Source: Dictyobacter arantiisoli
Lineage (GTDB): Bacteria > Chloroflexota > Ktedonobacteria > Ktedonobacterales > Ktedonobacteraceae
NCBI RefSeq assembly: GCF_008326305.1
Contig: NZ_BIXY01000013.1
Span: 1 to 64,000 of the forward strand
Direction of reading: 5' to 3'
DNA length: 64,000 bases
The position numbers were made by a program, and so were the translations under genes. This document shows, one piece after another, positions 22,570 to 29,922 of this stretch (the stretch's first letter is position 1; the number at the start of each line of letters is the position of its first letter). A model generated the notes under the pieces. It saw nothing but the letters and a program-made list of their open reading frames with translations, did no database searches and was not told where the DNA came from.

Positions 22570-23250
22570 CTAAGATGCTTCCGTTCTGACATATCCTCGA
22601 TCTTTCGCATATTGCCATAGCGACTTTTGCAACTGACGCCGGGCACGGGAGATACGACTCATAACAGTCCCAATGGGAATTTGTAAGGCTTCCGCAATTT
22701 CTTTATAGGATAATCCTTCTATATCTGCCAGAATAATTGCCATTCTGAAGTTTGGAGGAAGATCATTTAACGCTTTATACACATCTTCATCCAGGTACTG
22801 GCTCAAGACCTCTTCTTCAGCCCCTTGATTGATTTCTTGCCCACTCAGATCGCGAATCTGATTGTAAAGATAGAACTCTTCACCATCAGGCAAGGCTACT
22901 GGCGTCGGATGGGTCGCTATTTTTCGATAGCGATTGATGGCAGATGTGTTAAGAATGCGAAAGAGCCATGCGCGTAAATTGGTACCTGGTTGATAGGTAT
23001 GAGAGAAACGGATGGCTTTCAGCATTGTTTCCTGCACAAGATCCTCGGCCTCTTGCGGATTATTTGTCATACGTAACGCTGTACGGTACAGGCTATCCAA
23101 TTGAGCAAGAATCCCCGCCTCAAAATCTTCACCGGGAGGCTCTTTTTGCGTTGTGGTACTGATCTCTCTACTCTCTCCTTCTTCTATTGTATCAGTTGGT
23201 TCCGTTGATTCTTCCGTAAACAGGTTCTCGAAATTTGACTTTTCGTGCAT
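22570..23250 (-). CDS. ECF sigma factor, SigR-like
   Basis: A 226-residue group-4 sigma factor. Region 2 is visible at about 50-120 (LDSLYRTALRMTNNPQEAEDLVQETMLKAI, then NLRAWLFRILNTSAINRYRK). Region 4 is at about 160-215 (LPPNFRMAIILADIEGLSYKEIAEALQIPIGTVMSRISRARRQL). The sequence resembles Actinobacterial SigR, the thiol-oxidative-stress sigma, and a zinc anti-sigma gene lies divergently next to it. The start at 23250 has GAGGAG seven bases upstream; the open frame runs 42 bases further without such a site. The N-terminal ~45 residues are acidic and unlike other ECF factors. Confidence 0.9.
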   Translation of the reverse strand: MHEKSNFENLFTEESTEPTDTIEEGESREISTTTQKEPPGEDFEAGILAQLDSLYRTALRMTNNPQEAEDLVQETMLKAIRFSHTYQPGTNLRAWLFRILNTSAINRYRKIATHPTPVALPDGEEFYLYNQIRDLSGQEINQGAEEEVLSQYLDEDVYKALNDLPPNFRMAIILADIEGLSYKEIAEALQIPIGTVMSRISRARRQLQKSLWQYAKDRGYVRTEAS

Positions 23251-23333
23251 TAAATACTCCTCTGACCAGGGACTCTCCACGAGTTCTCCCACTTTCTTTT
23301 TCGAAAGTATTATCAGTATATCTTATAGGCCGT

Positions 23334-23361
23334 GGGAATGAAAGGCCTATCGTATTATGTT
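23334..23361 (+). promoter_or_regulatory. SigR-type promoter of the anti-sigma gene
   Basis: GGGAAT (23334-23339), then 19 bases, then GTT (23359-23361) matches the known SigR consensus GGAAT-N18/19-GTT. It points toward the anti-sigma gene and lies beside the SigR-like sigma gene, suggesting the sigma factor drives its own inhibitor. Confidence 0.65.
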
Positions 23362-23407
23362 AAAATGAACAGATAGAGTGGCGAGCTAGACTAGGAGAAT
23401 TTTTATT

Positions 23408-23713
23408 ATGGAATGTTTAGATTGTGTTGAGGCGACGGCGCGTTTGCATCTTTATATTGATCGTGAATTGACGGCTGAGGAAGTTGAGATCGTGCAACAG
23501 CATCTTGAAGGTTGCCCGAATTGTGATTGCCGATTTCATTTTGATTTGCAACTCAAGCGCTTAATTCATGAGCGTTGTACTATTGAGCATGCTCCTGTCC
23601 ATTTACGCGAGGCGGTGATGCGTCTGGCTCAAGGTGAACGCAGTAAGATTGATGCTGACCTGGCGCGCGAGATTAAAAAAGAGATGAAAGCGGATCTTGA
23701 AGGTTGGCGTTAA
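23408..23713 (+). CDS. Zinc-binding anti-sigma factor (RsrA/ZAS-like)
   Basis: A 101-residue cytoplasmic protein of the zinc-associated anti-sigma type. The core HLEGCPNC gives the HxxxCxxC zinc motif (His47, Cys51, Cys54), and further cysteines lie at 3, 6 and about 71. In RsrA, oxidation of these thiols releases zinc and frees the sigma factor. The ATG at 23408 has AGGAG about ten bases upstream. It is divergent from, not downstream of, the sigma gene, which is less usual. The C-terminal 30 residues are charged and lack a membrane helix, so the protein is soluble. Confidence 0.85.
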   Translation: MECLDCVEATARLHLYIDRELTAEEVEIVQQHLEGCPNCDCRFHFDLQLKRLIHERCTIEHAPVHLREAVMRLAQGERSKIDADLAREIKKEMKADLEGWR

Positions 23714-23980: not shown

Positions 23981-24706
23981 TTACAGTGCCACATTGAGTG
24001 AGAAGAGGGAATTGAGATAGGTCAAGACGTTAAAAAAGATCATTGCTCCCACGACTATCATGAGAATACCTGTACCAATTTCAATTTTACCCAGATGTGG
24101 CCTGCACCATTTCAAGGCGCGACTAACTTGATTGACCCCCAGGCCCAGTAATAGAAAGGGAACGCCTAATCCCAATGAATAGATGAGCAGCAACCAGACG
24201 CCCTGTTGGAGGGTGGTAGCGTTGGCTGCCAGCACCAAAATGCCTGCGAGAATTGGAGTCAGGCATGGTGACCAGGCAATGCCAAAGATTAACCCCATCA
24301 GCAACGAGGCGGGATAGCTTGATTTTTCCGGTACAAAGGTGAAGCGTTTTTGCTGGTAGAGCAGAGGGATATGCAAGATGCCGGTGAGATGGAGGCCAAA
24401 GATCACAATGATTACTCCCCCAACCTGTCGTAAGATTGTGAGATGATCGTGTAAAAAACTGCCCAGTGTGCTAGCTGTCGCACCTAATGCGATAAAGGCG
24501 AACGTAAAGCCGAGCACGAACATCGTGGCATGGCGTAAGGTTATCAGGCGAGTTGCCAGACTCTTATGCTGCTCTGTCGCTTGCGCGACGCTCGGTCCAA
24601 CCAGTTGTGCCAGATAGATCGGCACCAGTGGAAGGACACAGGGAGACAGAAATGAGGCCAATCCGGCGATAAAAGCAATACCAAAGCTGATCTGTGTGGG
24701 ATACAT
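23981..24706 (-). CDS. ccdA: CcdA-type thiol-disulfide transmembrane protein
   Basis: A 241-residue membrane protein with six hydrophobic segments. It carries the two conserved cysteines of the CcdA/DsbD family, in SFLSPCVLPLVP (first helix) and AWSPCLTPIL (fourth helix), which pass electrons from cytoplasmic thioredoxin to extracytoplasmic thiol proteins or apocytochrome c. The ATG at 24706 follows GAGGAG by five to six bases. It starts 48 bases after the HEAT-repeat gene on the same strand, so the two may be co-transcribed. No resA or ccs genes are near, leaving the downstream partner open. Confidence 0.88.
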   Translation of the reverse strand: MYPTQISFGIAFIAGLASFLSPCVLPLVPIYLAQLVGPSVAQATEQHKSLATRLITLRHATMFVLGFTFAFIALGATASTLGSFLHDHLTILRQVGGVIIVIFGLHLTGILHIPLLYQQKRFTFVPEKSSYPASLLMGLIFGIAWSPCLTPILAGILVLAANATTLQQGVWLLLIYSLGLGVPFLLLGLGVNQVSRALKWCRPHLGKIEIGTGILMIVVGAMIFFNVLTYLNSLFSLNVAL

Positions 24707-28354: not shown

Positions 28355-29257
28355 TTAATCGAGATAGTCTTTCAAGATTCTGCTGGCCTGTGGATGGCGC
28401 AACTTGCGAATTGCGCGTTCCTCAATCTGTCGTACACGTTCACGGGTGACTTTTAATTTTTTGCCAACTTCCTCAAGCGTGTGATCATGGTCATCGAGAA
28501 GGCCAAAGCGCAACTCAATAACTTGCCGTTCTCGGACCGTTAATTGTCCCAGAACTTTACGAATCTCTTCACGTAACAACTGTTGATCGGTAATCTCAGA
28601 AGGTCCTCGATCATGGATGTCTTCAATAATATCGCCGAGGGTATTCTCCTCTTCTTCTGAGAGTGGGGCATCAAGCGAGAAGACCTTTTCGGCCCAGATA
28701 AGCAATTCGCTGACGCGTTCTGGTGTCATACCGAGACGTTCACCAATATTATCGGGGGTTGGTTCTCGTCCTGTTTCCTGATACAACTGGCGTGTGGTGC
28801 GTTTGACACGCATCACCTCTTCCATGATGTAGACAGGGAGTCGTACAACACGTGTACCCTCGAGGATGGCCCGTGTGATTGCCTGTTTGATCCACCATGT
28901 GGCATAGGTGGAGAAACGGAAACCCTTGCGATAATCAAATTTGGTAACAGCCCTGATGAGGCCAATATTGCCCTCACCGATCAGATCTTCCAGGGAAAGC
29001 CCCTGTCCGACATATTTCTTGGCAATGCTGACAACCAGACGTAAATTCGCTTCGATGAGATGATTTCGTGCATCCTTGTCACCCCCCTCAGCCCTCTCTG
29101 CAATGCGAGATTCGCTTGCTGCGGAGAGCAGAGGAATACGTGAGATCTCACGAAGATAGAGACGTAAGCTGTCACTTTGTGCCAGGCTACTCAGATCGGT
29201 ATCTGGTACATTTTCGCGTTCAGCCGCTTTATCACGGTTGCGTTCTGCGTTAAACAT
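28355..29257 (-). CDS. RNA polymerase sigma-70 factor (group 1/2)
   Basis: A 300-residue sigma factor without region 1.1. Region 1.2 is [17 protein letters not shown], region 2 holds [38 protein letters not shown] and [13 protein letters not shown], region 3 follows, and region 4.2 is [24 protein letters not shown]. The -10 and -35 reading residues appear intact, so it should read TATAAT-type promoters like those in this window. The ATG at 29257 is chosen; a TTG at 29272 preceded by AGAGAG is an alternative and adds five residues. A promoter and a terminator frame the gene. Whether it is the main sigma or a paralogue cannot be decided here. Confidence 0.92.
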
Positions 29258-29354: not shown

Positions 29355-29922
29355 GCAACATCTCCCCACTGTTCAGTCATCATACCTCACGTTGTTTCGT
29401 TTTGTGTTTGTGTCGACGAACGCATATGCGTACCAGATCCGGACACCATGTAGGACGTGAGGTTTTCTTTTTCTTTTTGCCAAGTATATTCTTGAGAACA
29501 GTAAACAATAGGGTTCTTATTCCTGTTTTGCTAGTAAATTTCCGAAACTATGTTGCTTTTGACGCTTGATTATGCTATTGCTGATAAAAAGATATTTTTC
29601 CCTATCATATAGAAGCACTCTTGAGATGAAATGCGTCTGTTTTGGAATGTGCTCTACCTATTATGTTGGATGACGGGAAGAATGGCTACTACTTTTTTTA
29701 ATTGAGACAGAATATGCTATGATAACGGCTGAGTCGAGTGCATGGAAGAAAGCGTGACTGCATAAGGAAATATCGCACTATGATTACAGGAGTTTGGCTC
29801 AGCTTTACCCTACGAGAAATTCTCAGGCTGTAACCGCTCTGGTCATTGCTTCGTAAATATAACGCAACGCGCAAACGTTAAAGAAACTACCATGTGTTGA
29901 AAGTAGAGGGATTAGCTCTGCT
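29355..29922 (+). other. Gap before kinase 3 with a possible extended -10
   Basis: No gene is seen. TGCTATGAT at 29715-29723 fits TGnTATAAT with one mismatch and could start a roughly 200-base leader for kinase 3. No known riboswitch was recognised in that leader. Confidence 0.35.

Follow-up and report, generated by a model that had tools for sequence, protein, structure and literature searches.

The window, the whole 64,000-nucleotide stretch of DNA that we analysed, lies on contig C13 of a 7.2 Mb assembly from a soil-type, non-actinobacterial host, a Dictyobacter-like member of the Ktedonobacteria (Chloroflexota). Two genes diverge within it: on the minus strand, a SigR/SigH-like ECF sigma factor (22570–23250; 226 aa from the ATG at 23250, which is closely preceded by GAGGAG, with an alternative GTG that extends the gene to 23292), and, on the plus strand, an RsrA-like zinc-binding anti-sigma factor (23408–23713; 101 aa, ATG start). 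The intergenic region contains GGGAATGAAAGGCCTATCGTATTATGTT at positions 23334–23361 of the plus strand, which has the layout of a SigR-type promoter of the anti-sigma gene, with a −35 element GGGAAT (23334–23339), a spacer of 19 nucleotides (N19) and a −10 element GTT (23359–23361). The anti-sigma ATG follows 46 bp further on. A CcdA/DsbD-like membrane thiol-transfer gene (23981–24706, minus strand) lies downstream of the anti-sigma gene, a position that it occupies in 26 of 27 loci.

When 84,980 species genomes were searched with the sigma factor, the top 23 loci all belonged to Ktedonobacteria. The protein is 95% identical to the sigma factor of Dictyobacter aurantiacus over 190 aligned columns, which bears out an earlier interpretation of the letters alone (the sequence-only reading) that this is probably a Chloroflexota genome. 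None of the plasmid records matched the sigma/anti-sigma pair. The sigma gene of Ktedonospora formicarum is apparently split across two frames, by either a frameshift or an assembly error.

The sigma and anti-sigma proteins

The best NCBIfam match of the sigma factor is SigH_actino (TIGR02947) at 179.9 bits, and because this score does not reach the curated cut-off of 251.55, we classify the protein only as SigR-like and not as a strict member of that family. Its group label in the ECF classification is presumably ECF12. The closest solved relative is M. tuberculosis SigH (148.8 bits), with which the protein has the recognition-helix segment PIGTVMSR in common, and its N terminus carries a variable acidic extension of about 40 aa.

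The anti-sigma factor scores 59.1 bits against the RsrA model TIGR03988 (antisig_RsrA), for which the curated cut-off is 62.5; this cut-off is passed in 8 of the 29 genomes of the host's family. Five residues, Cys6, His32, Cys36, Cys39 and Cys57, are invariant in all 16 aligned orthologs. The first four align with Cys11, His37, position 41 (a serine in the mutant whose structure was solved) and Cys44 of RsrA, which passages of PMC4960319 identify as zinc and redox residues. The window protein has the CHCC zinc motif together with the N-terminal cysteine that is redox-essential in RsrA. An AlphaFold model computed from a 16-row alignment was poor (mean pLDDT 53.6).

Conservation of the SigR-type site and its predicted regulon

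A chance match lacking promoter function would be in line with the raw counts, which are near expectation in both the window and the genome. GGGAAT-N17..20-GTT occurs three times in the window against 1.57 expected, and three or more matches arose in 19 of 100 shuffles. The exact GGGAAT-N18/19-GTT pattern is found at 101 places genome-wide and its mirrored form at 44; a tally by spacer over 1.54 Mb suggests that 101 is roughly what other spacers yield, and for this reason we do not treat raw motif abundance as evidence. It is position and conservation, not sequence alone, that place the site above chance. Orthologs of the anti-sigma gene are present in 27 of 29 family genomes, spanning 13 genera (two draft genomes, G005 and G006, lack one), and exactly one GGGAAT-N18/19-GTT lies within 200 bp before the gene in all 27 loci, which come from relatives and are not independent samples. 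The spacer is N19 in 19 of these sites and N18 in eight, and the conserved form is GGGAATGAAA in every one, with TG preceding TT. Sixteen other spacers (10 to 27) gave three sites in total in the 450 bp upstream of the anti-sigma genes, and dinucleotide-shuffled upstreams, scored for the looser GGAAT-N18/19-GTT, gave a mean of 0.45 and a maximum of 3 of 27. Given this conservation at one position and spacer, as well as the recurrence of the motif before unrelated orthologous genes (see below), we rejected the chance match as extremely improbable.

Two further features of the region deserve mention. The inverted repeat ATAGGCC...GGCCTAT around the −35 element does not occur in those upstream sequences of relatives that we compared, and we treat it as incidental. 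Just past the −10 element, where transcription of the anti-sigma gene is predicted to start, a GAACAG-like stretch (23367–23375) is conserved; its terminal CA is identically positioned in all 27 loci, and GAACA occurs in 19 of them. The two draft genomes in which we found no RsrA-like ortholog retain a SigR-type site at their mycoredoxin genes. The sequence-only reading had regarded the motif as surprising outside Actinobacteria. The motif is indeed present here, but its occurrence is less odd than implied: RsrA-family matches exceed the curated cut-off in 45 of 400 Chloroflexota genomes.

To survey possible targets, we took 33 intergenic upstream candidates from 1.54 Mb of the 7.2 Mb genome, a portion selected to cover the surroundings of 96 of the 101 motif matches. 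Because the sampled regions were centred on motif places, the totals of GGGAAT sites at spacers 18/19 are ascertained, and our statistics use only the upstream fraction of GGGAAT sites and the unascertained HGGAAT sites. Upstream-intergenic positions accounted for 21 of 96 GGGAAT sites, whereas at 16 other spacers they accounted for 19 of 200 (p 0.004), and 12 unascertained HGGAAT sites of the host genome at spacers 18/19 were upstream-intergenic versus 3.75 expected. A matrix scan of the 1.54 Mb at moderate thresholds exceeded control spacers only roughly twofold. The own-genome upstream matches include SufU-like and lipoamide dehydrogenase genes.

Five candidate families, along with TrxB, which was included on principle, were then checked in the relatives for GGAAT-N18/19-GTT in the 450 bp upstream. 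Mycoredoxin-type glutaredoxin genes have the site in 27 of 30 loci, with no sites at the 16 other spacers; with 98.8 bits, the glutaredoxin-like target exceeds the cut-off of the curated mycoredoxin model TIGR02200 (89.5). ClpC-like genes, which encode an N-terminal CxxC motif, have it in 26 of 30 loci (43 sites, compared with five at the 16 other spacers), and the misses include one locus with 6 nt of upstream sequence (L223) and two other Clp paralogs (L224 and L225). In shuffled upstreams, at most three loci of any gene set had a site. The remaining thiol-redox families gave a different result. TrxB-family upstreams have the site in just 2 of 30 loci, and the own-genome sites of the MsrB gene (1 of 18 loci) and the DsbA/FrnE-like gene (1 of 21 loci) are unconserved, and we rejected all three as regulon members. 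The enrichment at thiol-redox genes proposed in the sequence-only reading therefore appears at mycoredoxin and ClpC-like genes and not at TrxB, MsrB or DsbA-like genes, while its identification of a SigR-type promoter accords with both the conservation at the anti-sigma gene and the sharing of the motif with these two families. Because mycoredoxin and ClpC-like genes carry the site and TrxB, MsrB and DsbA-like genes do not, the predicted regulon is a small SigR-type one, with a core of anti-sigma, mycoredoxin and ClpC-like genes, and not the whole actinobacterial set.

The window contains another candidate SigR-type site, a GGAAT-N19-GTT at 29497–29523 of the minus strand, which lies upstream of a gene for an RpoD/SigA-like sigma factor (28355–29254, minus strand; 299 aa), a possible downstream target. 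Seven of the 30 orthologous loci have the site, namely all five of genus g1 and 2 of the 25 others, at a distance of about 240 bp from the gene; the other spacers give four sites. This RpoD-like sigma factor is a possible regulon member at the level of the genus, and a sigma cascade like SigH to SigB may exist there.

Other observations concern the target genes and their thiol. Two tandem ClpC-like genes (locus L084, 9045–11825, which corresponds to about 90.9–93.7 kb of contig C13) each have at least two SigR-type promoters 69–70 bp apart, a spacing that recurs in relatives. A search with the MshC model gave matches in 29 of 29 family genomes, none of them (0 of 29) over the cut-off, and the best match in the host scores higher on CysS (393.7 versus 366.3 bits). 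A short CysS/MshC-like ligase of 387 aa with these two scores (L418, 2001–3161; G000:C7:98786–99946) has relatives across the family and might provide a mycothiol-like thiol to accompany mycoredoxin. Upstream of 20 CysS/MshC-like loci, one of which (L437) comes without upstream sequence, we found no SigR-type site.

These promoters could be real and still be read mainly by another ECF sigma factor with a similar GGAAT/GTT preference. The host genome encodes at least 32 ECF-like matches to the SigH_actino model, and one such sigma factor, on contig C121, adjoins an RsrA-model match of 51.1 bits. The adjacent sigma factor nevertheless outscores every other SigH_actino match of the genome by a wide margin (the next-best reaches 101.1 bits), its recognition-helix segment is the one found in M. 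tuberculosis SigH, and the site accompanies the anti-sigma gene of this very sigma factor in all 27 loci. We therefore consider a different reader unlikely and favor the divergently encoded SigR/SigH-like protein as the probable reader.

The sigma side of the intergenic region

The sigma gene lacks a comparable site. An exact search for the SigR-type site upstream of sigma found it in 0 of 25 loci, the GGAA[TC] variant in 0 of 23, and a relaxed matrix built from the conserved sites placed 0 of 25 sigma upstreams above the 95th percentile of shuffles. With this matrix, sigma upstreams scored −1.3 on average, compared with 0.3 for shuffled sequences and 20.7 for the upstreams of rsrA. The earlier suggestion that the sigma factor would induce its inhibitor and not obviously itself agrees with these searches.

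The divergent arrangement is equally consistent within the clade. In all 23 Ktedonobacteria loci, the sigma and anti-sigma genes point away from each other, whereas among the 57 other loci of the sigma search they are co-directional in all 47 with a recognised anti-sigma gene (none was recognised in the other ten). Among Chloroflexota outside the family, the pair is co-directional in 30 of 30 loci (L337–L366), which are the best-scoring RsrA-model matches and not a random sample. GGAAT-N18/19-GTT precedes sigma in 11 of these 30 best-scoring loci, with none at other spacers, and GGAA[TC]-N18/19-GTT precedes it in 19 of the 57 other loci of the search. In a sigma tree from a quick search (82 rows, including 29 of the 57 other-phylum loci, and with long branches), a branch with SH-aLRT 100 sets the Ktedonobacteria sequences apart from the rest. 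Among the loci examined, the divergent layout is thus limited to Ktedonobacteria. These comparisons suggest that inhibitor-only feedback arose by rearrangement of an ancestral operon that induced itself, a direction that follows from the outgroups and not from a rooted reconstruction.

The conserved sequence around the SigR-type site extends beyond what that promoter comprises. A consensus scan identified a housekeeping-like promoter interleaved with it on the plus strand (23338–23366), consisting of ATGAAA (23338–23343), a 17-bp spacer and a TG-extended TAAAAT (23361–23366). ATGAAA and TG are present in 27 of 27 orthologous anti-sigma sites and TA[AG]AAT in 25 of 27, at spacings of 16–17 bp; the same 9-of-12 housekeeping match occurs at 0 of 21 distinct mycoredoxin sites and 3 of 34 distinct ClpC-like sites. 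We infer that, in 25 of the 27 loci, the SigR-type promoter and an extended-TG housekeeping promoter of the anti-sigma gene interleave.

A −10-like TATACT (23315–23320) faces outward on the minus strand, separated by 20 bp from the SigR-type −35 element. Of the 17 loci with a nearby sigma gene, 15 have TATACT on the sigma strand at a distance of 20 bp (14 loci) or 21 bp (one locus) from GGGAAT; of the remaining two, one has it at 39 bp and the other lacks it. The 20–21 bp placement had a frequency of 0.8% under mononucleotide shuffling, which is a weak null for related loci. The ten loci in which sigma is distant or not in the locus have no TATACT within 45 bp and still keep GGGAATGAAA. Because loci without TATACT retain this form, GAAA appears to be kept for the anti-sigma side. 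TATACT is a candidate housekeeping promoter element of the sigma gene.

Together, these elements raise the prospect of composite control, which would extend, and not replace, the explanation that we favor. The anti-sigma promoter would be read by both SigR-like and housekeeping sigma factors, the −35 region of a housekeeping promoter of the sigma gene would overlap the SigR-type −35 element, and a SigR-type polymerase bound there would block sigma transcription. The near-invariance of ATGAAA, TG and TA[AG]AAT in rsrA-like sites, their rarity at mycoredoxin and ClpC-like genes, and the fixed placement of TATACT point this way. On the other hand, the minus-strand −35 element (CTTTCA or TTTCAT) would be a poor match to TTGACA, a stock scan favoured a different minus-strand −10 element (GATAAT), and the extra conservation could serve the mRNA leader or initiation. 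We put this proposal forward tentatively, at somewhat below even chances. More speculative still is a fully self-limiting divergent promoter, derived from a self-inducing operon, in which sigma would be driven solely by housekeeping polymerase from a −35 element coincident with the SigR-type one, and freed sigma would induce its inhibitor and at the same time block its own gene. If true, this arrangement would amount to two-fold negative feedback without self-induction in Ktedonobacteria.

Proposed inhibitor-only feedback compared with known systems

Taking the evidence as a whole, we consider it very probable that the site functions as a real promoter and that the SigR/SigH-like ECF sigma factor encoded in the opposite direction recognises it, in an inhibitor-only feedback loop. 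Under reducing conditions, the RsrA-like protein, with zinc on Cys6, His32, Cys36 and Cys39, would hold the sigma factor. Thiol oxidation would generate a disulfide involving Cys6, expel the zinc and free the sigma factor, which would direct RNA polymerase to GGAAT-N18/19-GTT at the anti-sigma, mycoredoxin-type and ClpC-like genes and probably a few more. Newly made inhibitor would end the response once conditions became reducing again. The divergent orientation of the pair would leave sigma itself uninduced, and the loop would comprise negative feedback through the inhibitor only. Many ECF sigma factors induce themselves along with their inhibitor; a clade with the same sigma factor and motif and inhibitor-only induction would be a natural experiment on the value of self-induction. 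The analysis also predicts a small thiol-stress regulon for Ktedonobacteria, consisting of mycoredoxin, ClpC-like and possibly RpoD-like sigma genes.

We found no report of SigR–RsrA in Chloroflexi, or of such systems in Ktedonobacteria, among open-access papers surveyed partly by title and abstract. Of the features that define SigR–RsrA systems, the Ktedonobacteria have GGAAT-N18/19-GTT at their own locus and at thiol and proteolysis genes, and they lack the co-directional pair and a TrxB-family gene under the promoter. The likeness to Streptomyces SigR–RsrA, as far as passages of PMC5472188 and PMC4960319 describe it, includes a homologous sigma factor, a CHCC zinc anti-sigma factor with a redox-essential N-terminal cysteine, the same motif, and Clp and mycoredoxin targets. 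The Streptomyces genes, by contrast, form a sigR–rsrA operon with the autoinduced sigRp2 before sigR, a promoter that the Ktedonobacteria sigma gene lacks, and trxBA is a key target there (PMC5472188, PMC4960319). Sections of PMC5472188 further describe, alongside the self-induced operon, a distinct promoter for rsrA, a long SigR isoform that can be degraded, and targets that include Clp.

The SigH–RshA pair of M. tuberculosis includes the closest solved relative of our sigma factor, and the SigH consensus given in part of PMC4803200, GGAAYR-N17/18-GTT, with a match at clpC1, equals the Ktedonobacteria motif. It differs in its co-directional layout and in the autoregulation of sigH by SigH, as stated in an excerpt of PMC3489674. 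The nearest parallel in circuit logic is C. glutamicum, in which, according to portions of PMC3489674, rshA has its own SigH-dependent promoter (TGGAAGA / TGTTAAA), sigH is transcribed from housekeeping promoters, and fast shut-off has been proposed. There, however, sigH and rshA form a co-directional operon in which rshA is also co-transcribed with sigH, whereas the Ktedonobacteria genes diverge and our searches of the locus turned up no SigR-type promoter besides that of the inhibitor. Closer in lineage, the operon-type pairs of other Chloroflexota have anti-sigma factors over the RsrA cut-off and, in part, the site before sigma, and they are co-directional where Ktedonobacteria are divergent. 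Set against these systems, the proteins themselves are ordinary, and what is new is the divergent layout, the absence of a sigma-side promoter across a whole clade and the apparently overlapping promoters.
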